Source: Stigmatella aurantiaca DW4/3-1 (GTDB taxonomy: Bacteria; Myxococcota; Myxococcia; Myxococcales; Myxococcaceae). Taken from it: a DNA stretch of 64,000 nucleotides. The position numbers were made by a program, and so were the translations under genes. Location: the NCBI RefSeq assembly GCF_000165485.1, contig NC_014623.1, positions 4,669,501-4,733,500 of the forward strand, read 5' to 3'. Shown one piece after another: positions 1,790-10,809 of the stretch (position 1 is the stretch's first letter; the number at the start of each line of letters is the position of its first letter). Below the pieces are notes generated by a model. That model saw only the letters and a list, made by a program, of their open reading frames with translations. It was not told the origin of the DNA and searched no databases.

Positions 1790-1797
1790 CTGCAGCG

Positions 1798-2637
1798 TCA
1801 GCGTTCAACCCAGTGCGCGAAGAACGGTTTGGCGCTCTCCGGCATGGAATCGAAGGCCGCCTGCGGGATCAGGGGGACTGAATTGTCTTTCCCCTTGGAA
1901 TCACGCAGAAGCCGCTCGTATTCAGGTGAGCCTTTCCTGCGGAACTCAAGGTTGAGCCACCACGCTGAGTAGCGCACATTCAAGGCCATTCTGGGCCCAG
2001 CGCTCAAGTTCGGAGCGACACAGTGCCACAGGCGGCTGTCGTAGAACAGGACATCCCCTGGTTTGCCGGAGGCAGTCACTTCCGCGGAGTGGGGTTCGAA
2101 CTGCTCGGTATGACTTCCTCCGCTGGGATTGTGGGAGCGCCGGTGGCTGCCAGGCAGCAGGATCGTTCCTCCGGTCTGTTTGTTGAACGGCGACAGCATG
2201 AAGATCGCCGAAAGGTTCATCACGGCGTCGGGATAGGGGCTTGGGAGCGTCGTGGCCAGTTTCTGGTTGAAGGGCCAGTCGGCGTGCCAGTAGCCCCTCT
2301 CGTTGCCGGGATAGGTCACGATGGCCCCGACCGAAGACACCTTGAAATACCGGCCCAGCAGCGCTTCTCCTGCCTCTATCAGGAGTGGATTCGCGACGTG
2401 GCGTGCCAGCCAAGGCAGGCGGTTGATCACTGCCTGGGCGTGGACGATTCCCTTGGGGGGCATCTGGAAGCCGGCATTCGAGATCCGGGAGACCTCTGCG
2501 GACCAGCCGGCGCTCTGCCGGTCGAGTTCCTCACGGACCTCCGCCTGGACCTCAGGCAAATCCAAGGCCGGGATGATGCCCTCCACAATGCACCAGCCCT
2601 CTGCCCGTACCCGCTCAACAATCTCATCGGCTCTCAT
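1798..2637 (-). CDS. Phytanoyl-CoA dioxygenase (PhyH) family Fe(II)/2-oxoglutarate enzyme
   Basis: This 279-residue protein has the PhyH hallmarks: YWHADWPFNQ supplies the HxD iron ligands, LWHCVAPNLS the distal His, and GPRMALNVRYSAWW the Arg that contacts 2-oxoglutarate. Such enzymes hydroxylate or halogenate small molecules and are common tailoring enzymes in natural-product clusters. It follows the asparagine-synthetase-like gene by 57 nt on the same strand, which suggests one operon. The substrate cannot be read from sequence. Confidence 0.85.
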   Translation of the reverse strand: MRADEIVERVRAEGWCIVEGIIPALDLPEVQAEVREELDRQSAGWSAEVSRISNAGFQMPPKGIVHAQAVINRLPWLARHVANPLLIEAGEALLGRYFKVSSVGAIVTYPGNERGYWHADWPFNQKLATTLPSPYPDAVMNLSAIFMLSPFNKQTGGTILLPGSHRRSHNPSGGSHTEQFEPHSAEVTASGKPGDVLFYDSRLWHCVAPNLSAGPRMALNVRYSAWWLNLEFRRKGSPEYERLLRDSKGKDNSVPLIPQAAFDSMPESAKPFFAHWVER

Positions 2638-2694
2638 GACATCGTCCTCTCTGGAGATTCGACGCTTCGTGGCCCCGCGCTCTCAGCAATGGCC

Positions 2695-4497
2695 TCAGGT
2701 GCTCACCTTGAACTTCCGCATCCAGAGCCCGAAGCAGAGAACACGCCAGAGCAACATCAAGGTTTCCTTGTCCGCCTGTCCCGGTTCCCGGGCCATGGCC
2801 TCCACGGCCCGCGCGTCGAACAGCTCAGGCCGCTCACGGACCACCCGGGACACACCGTCTTTCAGCGCCTTGCCCGCCTCCCCTCGGAACCACCCCTCTT
2901 CCAAGGAGGAATAGCTCCCCTTGCCATAGGGCTTGATGATGACGGGTGGGAGCAAGTGCTGCATCGCGCGGCGCAGCAGATACTTTGTCTCGTCACCGAC
3001 GATCTTGTACGCACTGCCCAGCCCGATGCAGAAATCCACCACGTGGTGGTCCATGAAGGGCACGTGGGTTTCCACCCCATGGGCCATGCCGATCCGATCG
3101 TTGTGCCTCATCATCATGGGCAGATCGCCGTGGAACACCCGGTAGCGGCAGAGCTCTCCCAAGCTGAAGCTCCGAGGGTTGGCCTCGAAGGAAGGGAGGT
3201 GAGCCGCCTGCTCGCGCATGTCCGCGGCCAGCCAGGAAAACCGTTCCTGTCCTCCGAGCCGTTCCACCAGCGGCAGCGAGGATCTCGAAGAGAGGGCCGC
3301 ACCGGCGCCGGCTTCCTGCTGCTGGCGGGGATCTCCCCGGTGCGCCCGCACCATGCTCATGTAGCCAGCCAGCAGCTCATCGGAGCCCTGGCCATCCAAA
3401 GTGGAACGGATGCCCATCTCTTCCGCCTGCTCGAAGAGCCTCCATTGGGCAGCCAGACTCGCGCGGCCAAAGGGCTCGTCCATGTGCCACACGAGGGCGT
3501 CGATGACTTCGATGGCGTCTTCGCCATGACAGTGGCTCTGATGGTGCGTGGCGCCTGTGCTCTCGAGCACCGCCTTCAGCAAGTGTGGCTCATCATATTG
3601 GGGGTCATCGAAGTAGGCCTTGAAGGTCACCAGCCTGTCCGTGGCGGACCCGGACCGCTCTAGATCGGCGGCCAGCAGGGCGGCGATGGCGGAACTGTCC
3701 AGTCCGCCAGACAGACAGAGGCCCCTGGGCCCTGGTTGCTTCCAGCGGACCCAAACCGCTTCGAGAAGCAGGTGCCGGAACCGCTCCACCGCCTCTGACT
3801 CTTCCATGCGAAGGCTGCCCGGCTCGGGAAGTTCGTACCACTTCCGGAACGCTGGCAGGGACTCCGTGCAGCGCCACTGCCTCAAGTCGATCTGCAGGTA
3901 GGTGCTCCCAGGCACACGCAGCACATCCTGGAAGAGCGTTTCCTCGGAGTGGTCCGTCAATCCCGCGACGAGGAACTCGAGACCCGCCCGGGCATTCAAC
4001 CGGATGGCCATCTCCCGCATCGGAAGGAACTGTTTGATCTCCGAGGCAAACGCGAGCGTCTTCGGGCCTTTGTAGATGTAGAGGGGTTTGAGGCCATAGC
4101 GATCGCGGGCGGCAAAAAGCCGTTTTTCCACATCGTCCCAAACCACCAAGGCGAACGCTCCATTGACACGGGTGAGGCACTCGGGCCCCCATCTGGAGAA
4201 GAGGGCGGTGATGAGTTCGGAGTCTTCAAGCGCCGCCCCACGAGGCGCCTCGACCAGCCGGGCAAGCTCCTCGCGATTGTAGAGACAACCGTCGAAGACA
4301 GCATGAAAGCGGCCGCGCCACGGCCTCCCGCTGTCGGCCGTTTCAGGGGGAGCCGCTTGGGCACACTGCCACAGGTGCACGGACCCCGCTGGAGACTCGA
4401 AGACGCGCGGGTCCGAGGAAACCGCTCCCCGGTGTTCAACGGCACGCGGCATCCCCTCGGGGGGCTCGGCCGCGACGGACACCCAGATGCCTCTCAT
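2695..4497 (-). CDS. Asparagine-synthetase-like enzyme lacking the glutaminase Cys2
   Basis: This is a two-domain AsnB-type protein of about 600 residues. The N-terminal Ntn-amidotransferase domain has FDGCLYNREEL, NGAFALVVWD and RDRYGLKPLYIY; the C-terminal synthetase domain has the PP-loop LCLSGGLDSSAI, LDGQGSDELLAGY and HVPFMDHHVVDF. Canonical enzymes begin MCGI with Cys2 as glutaminase nucleophile. Starting at the ATG at 4497 gives MRGI, exactly aligned with Arg in place of Cys; a GTG two codons upstream is the other possible start. ATP-dependent adenylation is expected, but glutamine hydrolysis is not. Lasso-peptide cyclases and beta-lactam synthetase are known precedents for loss of this Cys. 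It forms an operon with the PhyH gene. Confidence 0.88.
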   Translation of the reverse strand: MRGIWVSVAAEPPEGMPRAVEHRGAVSSDPRVFESPAGSVHLWQCAQAAPPETADSGRPWRGRFHAVFDGCLYNREELARLVEAPRGAALEDSELITALFSRWGPECLTRVNGAFALVVWDDVEKRLFAARDRYGLKPLYIYKGPKTLAFASEIKQFLPMREMAIRLNARAGLEFLVAGLTDHSEETLFQDVLRVPGSTYLQIDLRQWRCTESLPAFRKWYELPEPGSLRMEESEAVERFRHLLLEAVWVRWKQPGPRGLCLSGGLDSSAIAALLAADLERSGSATDRLVTFKAYFDDPQYDEPHLLKAVLESTGATHHQSHCHGEDAIEVIDALVWHMDEPFGRASLAAQWRLFEQAEEMGIRSTLDGQGSDELLAGYMSMVRAHRGDPRQQQEAGAGAALSSRSSLPLVERLGGQERFSWLAADMREQAAHLPSFEANPRSFSLGELCRYRVFHGDLPMMMRHNDRIGMAHGVETHVPFMDHHVVDFCIGLGSAYKIVGDETKYLLRRAMQHLLPPVIIKPYGKGSYSSLEEGWFRGEAGKALKDGVSRVVRERPELFDARAVEAMAREPGQADKETLMLLWRVLCFGLWMRKFKVST

Positions 4498-4703
4498 CGG
4501 CACTACCCGCTTTCAGACACCTGTACGCGTCTTGCCGCATGTGCCGTCCAATCAGGCGTCGAACGCTCGGACGTGCGGTGTGCCTCCAGCCCTGCCAGCT
4601 CATGGGAGCGCGGGGCCGTGATGACGGACTTGTGCCAGCGGCGGAGGGCACCCCTCTCAGGTGCTGGGCGCCCCCTGCGCCGGTCAATGCTTGACTCGAC
4701 GGC

Positions 4704-5012
4704 CTAACGGAGCGCCGTCGTGATCCGGTGGGTCGTCCTCACGAAGTCTTGCCAGTGGGTCACTGGCAGGAGTTCCGTCGTGCAATCGCCGTGCTCGCTG
4801 ATGATTTCCGCGGCGCGCTGGGCCTCCCTCTCATCCTCCGTCTCGACGACATCGAGGGCATCGTACGGGCCCCCATGGAATGCGAGCTTGAGGGTGCACT
4901 TGAGATGGGGAAGCTCCCGGAGGGTCTTCTCCTTCACTGCCTGTGCGCGCTGAGGCAGCGAGCGAATGTCCGTGGAACTCTTGTATTTCGACAGGATGGC
5001 ATATTGAGGCAT
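4704..5012 (-). CDS. GYD-domain protein
   Basis: This 102-residue protein begins MPQYAILSKY and has the compact alpha/beta barrel pattern of GYD-domain proteins, including KLAFHGGPYDALDVVE, where the family usually has a Gly-x-Tyr-Asp motif. The start at 5012 is preferred over an ATG 21 nt upstream because AAGGAAG lies 8-9 nt before it. No enzymatic role is established for the family. It sits between the membrane-protein and asparagine-synthetase-like genes. Confidence 0.75.
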   Translation of the reverse strand: MPQYAILSKYKSSTDIRSLPQRAQAVKEKTLRELPHLKCTLKLAFHGGPYDALDVVETEDEREAQRAAEIISEHGDCTTELLPVTHWQDFVRTTHRITTALR

Positions 5013-5101
5013 GGATCGTCTTCCTTTCTTCAAGAAAAGCCGCTGTTTCTGTCAAACTTCCCGTGAAAGCATGGCTGAGATACATTTCTCACTGCTTCGA
5101 G

Positions 5102-6562
5102 TCAGAACAGTTGCCGCTCCTTTCCGTTGAGGACTGTTCCTTGTTCAGAATGAGGCGCCTCGGGATCATTGGGTAAAATAAAGGGGAAGAGGTTCACGGA
5201 GAGGGCACCCCTGTGGCCTGGAAGCTTCGCGGGCACGATTCCCTCCGCCACGTGGGTTTCTCCGCGGTCCACGTAACGGATTCGAAGGGGATGTCCCGGA
5301 CTCATGACACGGGAGAGGCGCAAAAGGGCTTCCCGGAAGAAATAGCGGGAATAGCGGAACGCCTCGGGCTGGGAGAGGACCCGGTGTGCCAGCAGCGCTC
5401 CCGGATCTCCCTGGAGCGCAGAGGGAGGCGGCAACCCTTCGATGTGATCAATCCGCACATAGTCCGGCCCCCGGAAGAGCCTCCAACTGCTGGGGATGAG
5501 GAGGTGACGCCACGGCTCGGAGCGGAGATTGCTGAACATGGCAAAGCTGAACTCCGTCTTGAATCCCAGATACGGCCCGAGACCGTTCACCAGAAACGCA
5601 GTCCACAGGGTGAACAACAGCCCCTGTTCGAGCGCCCCGAGGCGCTTCCATCCCTCCACCTCCAGTGAGCGCCAGGAGAGCGTTCCGATTCCCAGCAACA
5701 GCAAGGCTGTTCCAGCGCCGAAGGCCAACTGGATGATCCAAGCGGGAGCTCTCATCACGTAAGGACAGTGGCGGTTGGCATGGCGGGGAGTCAGCGCCCA
5801 CACGACAAGAAGACTGAAACCGCAACATGTCCCGATGAGGAGGGGCGGTAAGGCGCTGACCTGGGCAATGGCCCCGGAAAGGGCCTGCTCTGGCACGAAC
5901 GCCATCAACCCCGCGTACATCATCGACGAGAAGTTCACGATTCCCAGCAAGGCCATGCTGAAGTGGAACAGGATCCCCACCCCCAACGCGAAGGGTCTCG
6001 TGGGCGGAAACAACAGCAGCAGCGGCAGGGCGGCTTCTACGAGGACCGTTCCGTAGATGCTCACCAGGCGCAAGAGCTTCTGCCCGCGCAAGCCGCGATC
6101 CCAGCAGAGAAAATCGACGAGCTGGGACGCACAGCTCAGCTTGGGCGAGAAATAATCTGCGTTCAGCTTGTGAAGGAATGCCAGGAAATACGTCAGGACG
6201 ATGAGTCCCTGAATTCCCAAGGCCACGAAGGATTCCATGGGCTCGACGCCCTGCGCGAGGCAGAGCGTCAACACCATGAACCAGGCCAAGATCAAGTGGT
6301 TCGAGAGCCGCAGCGAGTAGCTGGAGATGACCAGGGTGAGGAACCCAAGGCACGTGAGCAGGAGCCATCCCGACTGTGGCATGAAGAGCAATGCGCCACA
6401 GATGGCCATGAGCCCTCCATGCACCCATGCATGGGCTCGTGGGTTGAGCTTCAGGCCAAACGTGGGAAGAAAGCAATTCGTCAGGTAGCTGGGGCCATCC
6501 CTGAAAATATACAACGCCTCGTGAATGAGGATGGCGGCCGCAAGCATTCGGGTGAGGAGCAC
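5102..6562 (-). CDS. HTTM / vitamin-K-dependent gamma-carboxylase-like membrane protein
   Basis: This 486-residue protein has about eight to nine hydrophobic segments in the first ~330 residues and a soluble C-terminal third. The segment LAFLHKLNADYF resembles the conserved K-L-N-x-D-F/W motif of HTTM-domain proteins, which are homologues of vitamin-K-dependent gamma-glutamyl carboxylase. The start is GTG with CCGGAGAAT about 8 nt upstream. Its place directly after the diiron gene (65 nt) fits membrane-bound tailoring or export, but the activity is unknown. Confidence 0.6.
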   Translation of the reverse strand: MLLTRMLAAAILIHEALYIFRDGPSYLTNCFLPTFGLKLNPRAHAWVHGGLMAICGALLFMPQSGWLLLTCLGFLTLVISSYSLRLSNHLILAWFMVLTLCLAQGVEPMESFVALGIQGLIVLTYFLAFLHKLNADYFSPKLSCASQLVDFLCWDRGLRGQKLLRLVSIYGTVLVEAALPLLLLFPPTRPFALGVGILFHFSMALLGIVNFSSMMYAGLMAFVPEQALSGAIAQVSALPPLLIGTCCGFSLLVVWALTPRHANRHCPYVMRAPAWIIQLAFGAGTALLLLGIGTLSWRSLEVEGWKRLGALEQGLLFTLWTAFLVNGLGPYLGFKTEFSFAMFSNLRSEPWRHLLIPSSWRLFRGPDYVRIDHIEGLPPPSALQGDPGALLAHRVLSQPEAFRYSRYFFREALLRLSRVMSPGHPLRIRYVDRGETHVAEGIVPAKLPGHRGALSVNLFPFILPNDPEAPHSEQGTVLNGKERQLF

Positions 6563-6627
6563 CGATGGATTCTCCGGGGCGAGAGACCCTTGGCATGACT
6601 GCGGGAAGGGAAAAACCTCGGTGACAC

Positions 6628-7386
6628 TTATGCTCCGTCGAAGGTGTGCGTCTCGAGTTCCTTCAAGGTGAGGGCACAGAACTGCTCAAGTCTGCTGAAG
6701 AGCATGTCGCGGACAAGCGCCTCGGAGCCGCCTCGGGCCGCGGCCTCCATTGCCTGCGCGGTGTAAGCGATGTGCCGTGTTTCATCCGCAGTAATGGTTT
6801 CGAGCACTCCCTTGAGCCGGGCATGCTGCTCTGGAGGGCTGTGGCGCATGATTATCGGGTAGAGCAGAAGCTGATGGACCCTGGTTCGGATCTCTCCGAT
6901 GTTCATCTGCACCAGCGCATCCAAGGTGAGCACGGGCTCCTCGATGGCGTCACCTCGCTCCGGACGCTCGCGTACCGAGTAGCGCGGCGAAATGGCATCC
7001 AGTTGCGTCTGAACCCCCTCGTCCGCGCAGCCCGGAAACGCCAGATTGAGCATCGCAATGTAATAGCGGGCATGGTTGGATTCGTCGATCGCATGGCGGC
7101 GCACCTGTTCGGCGATCTCTGGCGATTCGATGAGCCCCGCCATCCGCCACAGCATGCGTGCCCCCTCGGCCTCCTTTTCCGCATTGGTTACCAAGGACCT
7201 CGCGAGCCAGGCGGGATCGGCCGCCTGCTCCCGGTAGGCCTCGCCATACCAACGCTTGCTGAAAGGGGGAACACAAGCCTCGAAGGAGGAGCACAGGAGC
7301 TGCTCATAGAAGGGTAAACCCTTGCCTTCGCTTGCTCTCAAGGCCTCGATGGTCAACTCTGCAATCACGTTGGAGCTTGAATCCAT
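6628..7386 (-). CDS. Ferritin-like diiron protein, probable oxygenase
   Basis: This 252-residue, mostly helical protein has a complete four-helix diiron ligand set: a Glu-rich helix around E70-E74, DE102SNH105, E165 in NIGEIRTRVHQ, and DE202TRH205. The two D-E-x-x-H motifs and ~100-residue spacing fit AurF/CmlI-type N-oxygenases or related ferritin-like oxidases rather than storage ferritins. GGAGAG lies ~8 nt before the ATG. It is the first enzyme after the small peptide gene and its hairpin, so it is the likely first tailoring enzyme of the operon. Confidence 0.75.
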   Translation of the reverse strand: MDSSSNVIAELTIEALRASEGKGLPFYEQLLCSSFEACVPPFSKRWYGEAYREQAADPAWLARSLVTNAEKEAEGARMLWRMAGLIESPEIAEQVRRHAIDESNHARYYIAMLNLAFPGCADEGVQTQLDAISPRYSVRERPERGDAIEEPVLTLDALVQMNIGEIRTRVHQLLLYPIIMRHSPPEQHARLKGVLETITADETRHIAYTAQAMEAAARGGSEALVRDMLFSRLEQFCALTLKELETHTFDGA

Positions 7387-7408
7387 GCGATGCGCTCTCC
7401 AAGGGACA

Positions 7409-7437
7409 AGGGCGGATGGCGGAGGGCCATCCGCCCT
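7409..7437 (-). terminator. 12-bp perfect hairpin between peptide gene and diiron gene
   Basis: AGGGCGGATGGC (7409-7420) and GCCATCCGCCCT (7426-7437) are perfect inverted repeats around a 5-nt loop. No T-run follows on the minus strand, so it may be an attenuator or an mRNA-stabilising element rather than a full terminator. It lies 63 nt after the peptide stop and 23 nt before the next ATG, the position where precursor-peptide operons often carry a partial terminator. Confidence 0.65.
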
Positions 7438-7499
7438 CGTTGATGGGTGACCCTGGAATGCCGGATCCGGCCGTCGAGGGCACTCTTACATCAGCTCAC

Positions 7500-7679
7500 T
7501 TAACGCTTGGGTGTCCTGCATTCATCGAAGGGGCAGTTCCAGGCCACGAAGTTGTCCTGCCGCTTCGCGCCGATGTCTCCCTGCGTCAGCTTGACCTTCA
7601 CGGCCAAGGTGGAGTTGACCTTCACTCCCTCGCTCCCGCCAACGGGCTCGAAGGTGATTGCGTCCTTGTCGACGGCCAT
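7500..7679 (-). CDS. 59-residue peptide, candidate RiPP precursor or small cluster protein
   Basis: A short minus-strand frame runs ATG 7679 to TAA 7500, with GGGGG as a possible ribosome site about 7 nt upstream. It begins MAVDKDAITFEPVGG and ends NCPFDECRTPKR with two Cys. A segment KLTQ/GDIGAKRQD meets the simple lasso-peptide rules (Thr at -2, Gly1, Asp9), and the operon holds an asparagine-synthetase homologue without Cys2, as lasso cyclases lack it. However, no RRE or transglutaminase-like protease gene is present. It is the first gene of the minus-strand operon and is followed by a strong hairpin. I do not recognise a family; precursor status is inference. Confidence 0.6.
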   Translation of the reverse strand: MAVDKDAITFEPVGGSEGVKVNSTLAVKVKLTQGDIGAKRQDNFVAWNCPFDECRTPKR

Positions 7680-7680
7680 G

Positions 7681-7770
7681 CTTGACCCCCACGTTGTTAG
7701 ATGAATTGCTATCCACTCCTGGTGAAGTGGGTAGTGCTGGCAGTATACTCATTCAAACATCTGGGTCAAG
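7681..7770. promoter_or_regulatory. Divergent promoter region with palindromic operator candidate
   Basis: This is the only region between the two divergent operons. CTATCCACTCC (7709-7719) and GAAGTGGGTAG (7724-7734) form an inverted repeat with 9 of 11 matches around a 4-nt spacer. A second pair, CTTGACCC (7681-7688) and GGGTCAAG (7763-7770), is a perfect inverted repeat at the region's two ends. TATACT (7744-7749) could be a -10 element for the plus-strand operon. No regulator gene is adjacent. Confidence 0.4.
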
Positions 7771-7798
7771 ACACGCAAGCTGCTCTCGAGGGCATCCG

Positions 7799-9178
7799 AT
7801 GGAACGCGCGCTCGCAGAACATATCGCCCATGCTCGATACGAAGCGCTTGATGCGTCTGTCATTGAGTCAACAAAGAGCTTCATCCTCGATACGCTGGGC
7901 GTGTCCCTTGCAGGATTGTGCATGCCGGGCATCCAGCCCCTGTTGGCCTATGTGCTGCAACAGGGCGGCCGTGGGGAAAGCACGATCCTCGGCCATCGTG
8001 CCCGGGGAACCGCGGAGCAGGCTGCGCTCATCAATGGAGCGCTGGCTCATGTCTTGGATTATGACGAGACCCATGTGGCGGCGAATGTCCACGCCAACGC
8101 AGCCGTATTTCCTGCGGCTCTCGCGGTGGCCGAGCAGCAGGGGCAGGTATCGGGCCGTGAGTTCCTGGTGGCCATTGCGTTGGGGGTGGATCTTACCTGC
8201 CGTTTGGGAATTGCCTGCCGACAGGGAATGAGCGAGGGGTGGTGGCCTACCTCTCTGTTCGGAGCATTCGGGGCGGCAGCCGCCACAGCCAGGCTGCTCG
8301 GGCTCGATGTGGACCGAATCCGGCAGACGCTAGGAATTGCCTACGCGCAAGCCACGGGCAACCGGCAGGCAATGCTCGACGGTGGTGACGCCAAATATTT
8401 ACAGTGCGGCCTGGCCGCGCGATCGGCGGTCACTGCCGGACACTTCGCCCGGATGGGCTTCACTGGCGCGACCCACTTCCTTTCGGGGCCGTTTGGATTG
8501 TCCGCGCTGTACGCGGGTGGAGCTCTCCGCGAGGCCGCGCTCTTCGAGGGGTTGGGCCGACGATTCCTTGGGGCCGAGTTGACCTGTAAGCTCTATCCAT
8601 GCTGCAGCGCAGCCCAAGCTCCCCTCCACGCTGCTCTTGAGCTGATGCGTGACCATCCGATCGACGCCCGGTCGCTGGCTGAGATTCGCGTTCAGGCTCC
8701 CCGTGAGGTGGCTGAGCAGCTTGGCCGTCCTGATCAGGAAGGAAGCACCCGGATCCAGCTCCAGGTCAACCTGCCCTATCTCGTCGCGGCCGCCGTGGTA
8801 CGGGGGCGTTTGAGCCTCCAGGATCTCGAAGAGGATGCCCTTCACGGCAGCCCGGAGGTGCTCTGGCTTGCCAAACGAGTGACGGTCGAGGCGGCAAGTA
8901 CCTCCAGCTTGCGCGGTGCGGAATTGCCGGTCACGGTCGAGTTTATCGCCAGGGACGGAACACGCTGGCAGCGGACGGTGGACGCTCCGGCGGGGGCTCC
9001 TTCCTATATGGGCCGCCGCGAACAGATCCTGGACAAGTTTCGCTCCTGTCTGGGTCATGGTGGAGATGAGACACTGCGAGCGAGGAGCGGCCTGATCATC
9101 GAAAGGCTCTTCCATTTGGAATCGCTGGACTCGATGGACCGCCTCACGGAAGCGTTCAGGACAAGGAGCGAAGAATGA
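7799..9178 (+). CDS. MmgE/PrpD family protein
   Basis: This 459-residue protein matches the MmgE/PrpD fold shared by 2-methylcitrate dehydratase, cis-aconitate decarboxylase and iminodisuccinate epimerase. Family features include FILDTLGVSLAGL near the N-terminus, the DYDETH segment, VHANAAVFPAALA, and KLYPCCSAAQAPLHA. The ATG at 7799 is chosen because GAGGG lies ~8 nt upstream; the frame is open further but has no RBS there. Its stop overlaps the next gene's ATG (ATGA), so the two are translationally coupled. It presumably acts on a polycarboxylate intermediate of the locus. Confidence 0.85.
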   Translation: MERALAEHIAHARYEALDASVIESTKSFILDTLGVSLAGLCMPGIQPLLAYVLQQGGRGESTILGHRARGTAEQAALINGALAHVLDYDETHVAANVHANAAVFPAALAVAEQQGQVSGREFLVAIALGVDLTCRLGIACRQGMSEGWWPTSLFGAFGAAAATARLLGLDVDRIRQTLGIAYAQATGNRQAMLDGGDAKYLQCGLAARSAVTAGHFARMGFTGATHFLSGPFGLSALYAGGALREAALFEGLGRRFLGAELTCKLYPCCSAAQAPLHAALELMRDHPIDARSLAEIRVQAPREVAEQLGRPDQEGSTRIQLQVNLPYLVAAAVVRGRLSLQDLEEDALHGSPEVLWLAKRVTVEAASTSSLRGAELPVTVEFIARDGTRWQRTVDAPAGAPSYMGRREQILDKFRSCLGHGGDETLRARSGLIIERLFHLESLDSMDRLTEAFRTRSEE

Positions 9179-10809
9179 ATGCCGCTGACGCGATCGCACG
9201 GATCCTCAAGGCGGAAGGGGTCGAATATCTCTTCGCCTATCCCATGAACCCCATCATCGAGGCCGCCGCGAATGTGGACATCCGGCCGATTGTCGTGCGG
9301 CAGGAGCGCACCGGCCTGCACATGGCCGACGCATTGAGCCGTATGTCCTCTGGCCGGCGCGTGGGCGTCTTTTGCATGCAGAATGGTCCTGGCGCGGAGA
9401 ACGCCTTCGGCGGCGTGGCGCAGGCCTATGGGGAGTCGGTGCCTCTTGTCGTCCTGCCCATGGGCTTTCCTCGCTCGCAGTCCGGTGTGAATCCCAATTT
9501 CAGTTCGGCACTCAATTTCCGCCACATCACCAAGTCTGCCGAGCAGGTTCTGGTGCCTCAGGCCATTCCCGATGCCCTGCGCCGCGCTTTCTTTCAGGCT
9601 CGCAACGGTCGGCCCCGTCCAGCCCTGGTCGAGATCCCAAGCGATCTGTTCAACGAGGAAGTGCCAGAGCCCTGGCACTACCGCCCGGCGCCAGAGGTCC
9701 GCTCGGCGCCCGATCCTGAAGTCGTCGAGCGGGTGGCCAGTGTCCTGGCCGGTGCCGCACGGCCCGTCATCTACGCTGGTCAAGGCGTTCATTATGCGCG
9801 GGCATGGGCCGCGTTGAAGGAAATGGCCGAACTGCTCGAAGCTCCGGTGGTGACCAGTCTCGGTGGCAAGAGCGCTTTCCCCGAGAATCATCCGCTCGCG
9901 CTCGGGTCTGGTGGCCGCGCCATTCCGCGCACGGTGCACACGTTTCTCCAGAGCGCTGATGTCATCCTGGGAATTGGGTGCAGCTTCACGTCGACCAAGT
10001 TCGGGGTGAAGATCCCGAAGGGCAAGACGCTCATCCACGCCACGCTCGATCCCTCGGACATCTACAAGGACATCGAAGCAGAGTATGCGCTCGTGGGGGA
10101 TGCCCGCTTGACACTGGAGGCCCTCGTGCAGGCGGTACGGCCAAGACTGGGGGGAAAGCCGCGCGGCAGGTCCGGCGACGTTGCACGGAGGATCGCCGAC
10201 GTCAAGGCCGAATGGCTGGCGGTCTGGAGGCCCAAACTCACCAGCAACGCGGCGCCCCTGTCTCCTTACCGGGTCATCTGGGATCTGATGCACACGGTTG
10301 ATGTCGCGAATACCATCATCACTCACGATGCCGGCAGTCCGCGCGATCAACTCTCGCCATTTTGGGAGAGCGTGACACCCCTCTCTTACATCGGTTGGGG
10401 AAAGACAACACAGTTGGGGTATGGCTTGGGGTTGGCGATGGGCGCCAAACTGGCGAGACCTGGACAGCTCTGCATCAACGTTTGGGGGGATGCAGCCATC
10501 GGTTTTACGGGCATGGACTTCGAGACGGCAGTCCGCGAGAGAATTCCGATCCTCTCGATCCTCTTCAACAACTCATCCATGGCGCTCGAGGTGCCTGTCA
10601 TGCCGGTCTCCACACAAAAGTACCGGAGCACGGACATCTCTGGGGACTACGCCGGCATGGTGAGGGCTCTTGGCGGATATGGTGAGCGTGTGATGACTCC
10701 GGAGCAGATCATTCCTGCTATCCGGCGCGGCATTGCCAAGACAGAAGAAGGCGTGCCTGCACTGCTGGAATTCATTACTGCTCAGGAGACGGAGTTTTCG
10801 TCGTTCTAG
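9175..10809 (+). CDS. Thiamine-diphosphate-dependent enzyme, acetolactate-synthase-like
   Basis: This is a 544-residue three-domain ThDP enzyme. The Pyr domain has RQERTGLHMADALSR with the catalytic Glu; a central Rossmann-like domain follows (RPVIYAGQGVHYA); the PP domain carries the ThDP/Mg motif WGDAAIGFTGMDFE ending in LFNNSSM. Such enzymes decarboxylate 2-oxo acids or ligate the resulting acyl anion. It is coupled to the MmgE/PrpD gene, so both probably act on one carboxylic-acid building block. It differs from housekeeping IlvB by context and could be a sulfopyruvate- or phosphonopyruvate-decarboxylase-like enzyme. Confidence 0.85.
   Translation: MNAADAIARILKAEGVEYLFAYPMNPIIEAAANVDIRPIVVRQERTGLHMADALSRMSSGRRVGVFCMQNGPGAENAFGGVAQAYGESVPLVVLPMGFPRSQSGVNPNFSSALNFRHITKSAEQVLVPQAIPDALRRAFFQARNGRPRPALVEIPSDLFNEEVPEPWHYRPAPEVRSAPDPEVVERVASVLAGAARPVIYAGQGVHYARAWAALKEMAELLEAPVVTSLGGKSAFPENHPLALGSGGRAIPRTVHTFLQSADVILGIGCSFTSTKFGVKIPKGKTLIHATLDPSDIYKDIEAEYALVGDARLTLEALVQAVRPRLGGKPRGRSGDVARRIADVKAEWLAVWRPKLTSNAAPLSPYRVIWDLMHTVDVANTIITHDAGSPRDQLSPFWESVTPLSYIGWGKTTQLGYGLGLAMGAKLARPGQLCINVWGDAAIGFTGMDFETAVRERIPILSILFNNSSMALEVPVMPVSTQKYRSTDISGDYAGMVRALGGYGERVMTPEQIIPAIRRGIAKTEEGVPALLEFITAQETEFSSF

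Follow-up and report, generated by a model that had tools for sequence, protein, structure and literature searches.

A short peptide gene coupled to that of a putative ferritin-like diiron oxygenase in Stigmatella aurantiaca: a probable precursor of a modified ribosomal peptide

Lasso cyclases and beta-lactam synthetase are devoid of the Cys2 residue of glutamine-dependent enzymes, and they make intramolecular amides. In pathways of the pearlin and 3-thiaglutamate type, a small molecule is built on the C-terminus of a peptide and is then released. Among iron enzymes, a 4-carboxylate/2-histidine (4C/2H) ligand pattern is that of ferritin-like oxygenases, while a 3H/3C set is that of the heme-oxygenase-like dimetal oxidases (HDO), according to PMC13108848. 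We compare here with such systems a locus of Stigmatella aurantiaca DW4/3-1, contained in a stretch of 64,000 nucleotides (the window). The coordinates of its features are collected in Table 1.

Table 1. Features of the peptide locus, in positions of the window
Feature	Position	Strand	Remarks
Candidate precursor peptide gene	7500..7679	-	59 aa + stop; putative leader ~1-34, putative core ~35-59 including FVAWNCPFDEC
Likely ribosome binding site GGGGG	7686..7690	-	7-11 bases 5' of ATG; kept in G075
Sigma-70-like promoter TTGACC-16-TATACT	7742..7769	-	consensus match only; kept in G075
12-bp perfect hairpin between peptide and FDO genes	7409..7437	-	single genome site; 11/12 pairs identical in G075
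Putative ferritin-like diiron oxygenase (FDO), 252 aa	6628..7386	-	invariant E72, E102xxH105, E165, E202xxH205
HTTM-like membrane protein, 486 aa	5102..6562	-	Pfam HTTM 24.4 bits, below cut-off 27.7
GYD-domain small protein	4704..5012	-	PF08734 E 1.4e-8; frame open from 5033, ATG at 5012 = G075 start
AsnB-like amide ligase without Cys2 nucleophile	2695..4497	-	N-terminus MRGIWVS
PhyH-type Fe/2-oxoglutarate oxygenase	1798..2637	-	PF05721 E 2.4e-16
MmgE/PrpD-family protein	7799..9178	+	divergent, within shared island
Thiamine-diphosphate (ThDP) enzyme	9175..10809	+	NF004807/PRK06154 family; last island gene

The peptide frame runs from ATG to TAA on the minus strand and its product is MAVDKDAITFEPVGGSEGVKVNSTLAVKVKLTQGDIGAKRQDNFVAWNCPFDECRTPKR, for which no family match was obtained in Pfam, NCBIfam or PHROGs. 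When 145 genomes of the order were searched, its own included, a relative was found in one further genome only, G075, which belongs to another genus of the same family. The two peptides are 83% identical, with the start, the stop and both cysteines unchanged. At the DNA level, 159 of the 180 bases of the frame are identical (88%), as compared to 72-77% in the flanking segments other than the hairpin. Twelve of the 20 substitutions within the frame are non-synonymous, giving a dN/dS of 0.39 (binomial P 0.06); the ratio is 0.13 over the last 21 codons and 0.60 over the first 38, all these codon statistics, from two genomes, being weak. A second minus-strand frame, 7522-7752, overlaps that of the peptide; it too is open in G075, but without its ATG. 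Overall, the relative in G075, the higher identity of the frame than of its flanks, and a core sequence recurring beside the same enzyme elsewhere (see below) show that the frame is beyond chance. The proposal of a real 59-residue gene, made in the preliminary description of this DNA, is thus confirmed, together with its start and stop. Two kinds of candidate relatives were discarded. A match in Pseudomonas amygdali, from a scan of a genome collection, was ascribed to chance: it lies antisense in a frame that is LysR-like by eye, and outside 18 residues around the octamer searched there is no similarity. Weak matches of the peptide profile in G152 (E 0.009) and G125 (E 0.00998) overlap larger frames and were rejected.

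The genes follow each other in the order peptide, FDO, HTTM-like, GYD, AsnB-like and PhyH-type oxygenase. This gene content bears out the idea that the peptide heads an operon of oxidative enzymes and of an AsnB-like enzyme. An ATP-grasp-like neighbour had also been proposed; this part did not hold, no ATP-grasp enzyme being found by Pfam among the eight island products. The island in question, eight genes over 9 kb (1792-10809), is common to the window's genome and G075, and it aligns between them as a single DNA block with 82.4% identity. Its edges lie at most 6 bases from the ends of the PhyH gene and of the divergent ThDP-enzyme gene. Among 195 genomes of the phylum, orthologues of the HTTM-like protein (84%) and of the PrpD-family protein (77%) occur only in G075, the next relatives being at 35% and 33% identity, respectively. 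From this distribution and from the single alignment block, we conclude that the eight genes are shared as one island. The MmgE/PrpD and ThDP pair (7799-10809) belongs to it though oppositely transcribed, and a close PrpD orthologue accompanies solely this cluster among the 195 genomes. Neither a leader peptidase nor an RRE nor an exporter was detected by Pfam among the eight island proteins.

The HTTM-like protein has an HKLN-type motif in common with its relatives, in which K132, L133 and N134 are invariant; the protein at this position in G075 has no Pfam family match. Its HTTM score being under the cut-off, membership of the HTTM/vitamin-K carboxylase-like group was not borne out. With the profile of the HTTM-like protein, no match to a solved structure was obtained up to E 1, and the predicted model (pLDDT 47) was unusable. 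Around the HTTM relatives of G075 (a second copy), G160 and G182, no homologue of FDO, AsnB or PhyH was seen in the stretches examined. Distant HTTM proteins, at L049 8680-10224, L050 9009-10388 and L051 5522-6931, have KLN and SNL motifs in common, and the stretches examined around them were without an FDO, AsnB or PhyH homologue.

Between the peptide and FDO genes, the perfect 12-bp hairpin pointed out earlier was recovered, and it is largely conserved in G075, where 26 of 29 positions are identical; there, the stem lacks its outermost A-T pair, and the loop has another sequence. A search of the 10.26-Mb genome for the stem-loop pattern gave a single site. The 121-nt intercistronic RNA has a predicted folding energy of -57.5 kcal/mol (z -4.0), and 0 of 200 shuffled sequences folded as well. 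There is no U-run 3' of the hairpin, nor any terminator-like site in 6500-8000. The hairpin might stabilise the upstream message or slow the polymerase, with the result that the peptide would be made in excess over the enzyme.

The FDO of the window has no Pfam or NCBIfam match at E 0.01, and its homologue in a related cluster, L015, reaches 22.9 bits against AurF for a cut-off of 29.6. Residues E72, E102, H105, E165, E202 and H205 are invariant in the eight FDOs aligned, which come from three phyla; the alignment represents 8 of the 12 loci described below, while L016, L018 and L019 agree with it, and the proteins of L055 and L057 are under one accession. In a predicted model (pLDDT 80.7), four long helices each carry one ligand set. 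This E/ExxH/E/ExxH pattern fits the 4C/2H type, in keeping with the putative assignment of the enzyme to the ferritin-like diiron oxygenases. In all eight sequences, H98 is conserved as well, making three invariant histidines with H105 and H205; an HDO-type 3H/3C ligand set may therefore be the alternative. Fold comparison of the model gave matches to MiaE (2itb, Z 13.3, rmsd 3.3, 173 residues aligned), ADO (13.2), UndA (12.5) and HrmI (12.2), Z-scores that are near the noise of the tool for helical bundles and that do not separate the ferritin-like from the HDO type. With Foldseek, the model gave no PDB match at E <= 0.001.

Relatives of the enzyme were found in six further genomes of the phylum (36-39% identity) and on plasmids of Dolichospermum, of two R. 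leguminosarum strains and of R. rhizoryzae (33-37%). This makes 12 loci with a close FDO: eight in the window's phylum (the window, G075, five of genus g19, and G060), one on a cyanobacterial plasmid and three on Rhizobium plasmids. In all 12, a peptide frame of 59-71 codons is present upstream of the FDO gene. In the ten loci beyond the window and G075, this frame is directly upstream, on the same strand, at a distance of 35 to 300 bases. Conservation of the peptide beside the neighbouring enzyme in relatives, on which the preliminary description had staked its proposal, was thus observed throughout. Separate searches of 195 genomes of the phylum with FDO and peptide profiles gave strong matches in the same eight; as the peptide profile was built from those genomes, what counts is the lack of any other strong peptide match without the enzyme. 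In G121, an FDO relative of weak score (E 2.4e-10) reaches the contig end; no N-x-P-F frame was seen in the 1.95 kb examined, and this locus was left out of the 12. Further weak FDO-like matches were seen in G134, G136, G020 and G012, and the Rhizobium peptide gave weak matches in plasmids of Bradyrhizobium (E 0.06) and Phaeobacter (E 0.4). Phage records contained no FDO relative at E <= 0.001.

Near the C-terminus of the peptide, the motif [FY]-x-A-x-N-[ACS]-P-F is present in 11 of the 12 loci, as FVAWNCPF in the window and G075, FVAMNSPF in the three Rhizobium peptides, YFARNAPF in the five peptides of genus g19 and FFARNAPF in G060. The family element is N-x-P-F; after it come 2 to 8 cluster-specific residues. 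The N-terminal half is variable, and almost wholly different between Rhizobium and the others. The C-terminal Cys motif noticed at the outset is indeed there, and kept in G075, but it is not a signature of the family, the other 10 peptides having no Cys pair. A matrix for a 10-residue core was trained on two Rhizobium cores and on six cores from the window's phylum, the window and G075 being excluded; with it, NFVAWNCPFD ranked first of the 108,597 ten-mers in the six frames of the window (19.8 bits, as compared to 12.0 for the next one), a rank whose significance is somewhat overstated because the motif window was picked after the sequences had been seen. The place of this core, directly before a homologous enzyme, gives independent support to the match.

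Over the whole length, the similarity of the window peptide to the distant peptides appears marginal. In local shuffling tests, the window or G075 peptide gave P values of 0.003-0.006 against Rhizobium, 0.016-0.036 against G060, 0.02-0.36 against genus g19 (0.0005-0.17 in global tests) and 0.20-0.49 against Dolichospermum. Profile-profile comparison with the window peptide gave P 0.033 and a probability of 1.6%, and with a whole-length profile of the six other peptides of the phylum, the window peptide was missed in its own genome at E up to 10. The Dolichospermum peptide is the exception as regards the core, being without N-x-P-F; its leader is shared (EQIKFEMSDEDIKSI versus EQISFELKETQLKSI, shuffle P 0.0003) and a GG site is present. 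This peptide (L054 8486-10971, on pUHCC0315a) combines a GG leader site with a core tail of repeated RSSAQL that is unlike all other cores in the set; it adjoins FDO and a JmjC oxygenase, with transposase genes nearby.

The surroundings of the pair vary. A C39-ABC transporter, an HlyD protein, a second ABC transporter and a Fes-like esterase stand beside the peptide in six of the 12 loci (the five of genus g19 and G060). The C39 peptidase was identified by Pfam in L015, the one related cluster so scanned, and has homologues in those 6/12 loci. A second oxygenase, of PhyH, JmjC_2 or TauD type, was present in 11 of the 12 loci in the stretches examined; the JmjC_2 type was seen in the g19 and Dolichospermum clusters and not in 19.5 kb of G060. 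In L015, the segment 10258-18826 encodes the Fes-like esterase, HlyD, two ABC transporters, one of them with the C39 peptidase, and JmjC_2, and it is kept in five genomes of one genus. Judged from these genes, it looks like a complete export-type peptide cluster.

In Rhizobium, the pair sits among genes for PEP mutase, phosphonopyruvate decarboxylase, a methyltransferase, a cytidylyltransferase-family protein, TauD and AsnB. The same gene set is found in R. rhizoryzae at 48-78% identity, the decarboxylase being cut there by the end of the stretch. A phosphonate cluster, marked by PEP mutase and phosphonopyruvate decarboxylase, is thus kept between two Rhizobium species, with the Cys of AsnB intact. 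It encloses the peptide-FDO pair in L055 4843-17013, which corresponds to R. leguminosarum pRLTp73_2 242089-254259, as well as in L056 and L057. A phosphonate-bearing ribosomal peptide is a possible product of this cluster.

We estimate at roughly three in four the probability that the frame encodes the precursor of a ribosomally made, post-translationally modified peptide belonging to an FDO-linked group. This reading relies on the pairing with FDO in 12/12 loci, on the core conserved in 11/12, and on the first rank of the held-out core; the invariant diiron-type ligands, the exporter and esterase genes in 6/12 loci, the second oxygenase in 11/12 and the island edges at gene ends also speak for it. 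Against it count the marginal whole-length similarity, the Dolichospermum peptide devoid of the core, the G121 locus without an N-x-P-F frame, the weak dN/dS, the overlapping frame, and the island's lack, by Pfam, of a leader peptidase, an RRE or an exporter. Residues 1 to about 34 would serve as a leader. The putative diiron enzyme would bind the peptide and, using O2, oxidise a residue in or beside N-x-P-F; the PhyH enzyme could perform a second oxidation. The AsnB-like enzyme has Arg in place of Cys2 in the window and G075, as compared to LCGIF retained in Rhizobium. By analogy with lasso cyclases and beta-lactam synthetase, we prefer for it the formation of a lactam or a conjugate over amidation; it would join a peptide carboxylate to a pre-existing amine, giving a lactam, an isopeptide or a conjugate. 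The HTTM, GYD, divergent PrpD-like and ThDP proteins might provide an additional group or attach it. As for the leader, the C39-peptidase exporter of the related clusters in the window's phylum may cut after a conserved VRAG. No such protease is among the proteins of the window's island, so leader removal would there have to come from elsewhere.

Other roles for the peptide were weighed against this one. The peptide could be a consumable scaffold, with a small molecule built at its C-terminal end and then cut off. The varying partner enzymes, which include phosphonate biosynthesis in Rhizobium, are in keeping with this, as is a conserved element that is short and near the C-terminus. However, the most conserved residues are internal, with the cluster-specific residues after them, and no LanB-type enzyme was found among the proteins scanned, which makes a scaffold unlikely. 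We also regard as improbable that the small protein assists the diiron enzyme as a subunit or an activator, or that its translation as a leader regulates the operon through the hairpin. Strict adjacency to FDO and a hairpin directly 3' of the frame would suit such a role, but the exporter and esterase in half of the loci and the GG site in Dolichospermum fit an exported peptide, and the N-terminal half is nearly all different between Rhizobium and the others.

Two further alternatives concern the AsnB-like enzyme. A lasso precursor, in which this enzyme would close a Gly34-Asp42 ring, had been suggested with reserve. The G075 peptide has the same Thr32, Gly34 and Asp42, and the enzyme resembles lasso cyclases by its missing Cys2; a macrolactam may accordingly be formed. 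Against a lasso fold, no PF13471 leader protease scored over the cut-off in the whole genome, the two sub-threshold matches being far away, and the AsnB-like enzyme stayed far under the cut-offs of the two lasso cyclase models on which the test is based (NF033535, 232.6 bits for 525; NF033561, 75.6 for 300). Moreover, an AsnB homologue is absent from 7 of the 12 FDO-peptide loci in the stretches examined, and the Gly-to-Asp spacing elsewhere differs by eye, being 7 or 8 in genus g19. By the features tested, the lasso suggestion is highly improbable. It is also very unlikely that the AsnB-like enzyme, in the manner of the nitrilobacillins, amidates the C-terminus or forms a nitrile there. AS-like enzymes do carry out such reactions in other peptide clusters, but PesC takes its nitrogen from Gln (PMC13060819), whereas the window and G075 enzymes have lost the Gln-hydrolysing Cys. 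In addition, no MNIO was seen by Pfam among the island proteins and the peptide has no R-V/T-D-N C-terminus.

A broader reading, possible though we lean somewhat against it, is that of a peptide class occurring as a peptide-FDO pair in three phyla, two of which have the A-x-N-[ACS]-P-F core. The class would be defined by a ferritin-like diiron enzyme oxidising this core, and the pair would act as a portable module joined to varied chemistry. In the window this would be a Cys-less AsnB with the HTTM membrane protein, in the related genomes C39 export together with an esterase, and in Rhizobium phosphonate biosynthesis, the Rhizobium product then being a ribosomal peptide bearing a phosphonate. 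In literature searches, mostly outside subscription journals, we came across no peptide family described as linked to a ferritin-like enzyme. If right, the interpretation as an FDO-linked precursor would offer ribosomal peptide discovery a class-defining enzyme type, the ferritin-like diiron one, and a searchable core motif. It would also flag clusters that gene calling blind to short genes, or mining based on RRE or MNIO, could miss, and provide small, testable peptide-enzyme pairs.

Compared with known systems, the locus shares with lasso peptides an AsnB-like ligase without Cys2 and the Gly/Asp spacing of the window peptide; it differs by the absence of an over-cut-off B protease from the genome and of an RRE, by Pfam, from the island. 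With peptides exported by NHLM/C39 systems (TIGR03796-type), the likeness is that HlyD, a C39-peptidase ABC transporter and a second ABC transporter adjoin the peptide in g19 and G060. However, the TIGR03796 score is 203 bits for a cut-off of 853.3, the window's island has no exporter, and the peptides belong to none of the families searched (Pfam, NCBIfam and PHROGs for the window; Pfam for L015 and L020). The nitrilobacillin pes cluster (AS-like PesC, MNIO, HExxH oxygenase) likewise combines a short precursor, iron oxygenases and an AsnB-like enzyme, whereas the window has a ferritin-like enzyme instead of an MNIO, an AsnB without the glutaminase Cys and another core. Finally, the enzyme shares with the ferritin-like diiron oxygenases AurF, MiaE and aldehyde-deformylating oxygenase the succession E, ExxH, E, ExxH on four helices, forming a four-helix bundle in the FDO model. 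It differs from them in having no Pfam or NCBIfam match over the cut-off, and in being genetically tied to a peptide.
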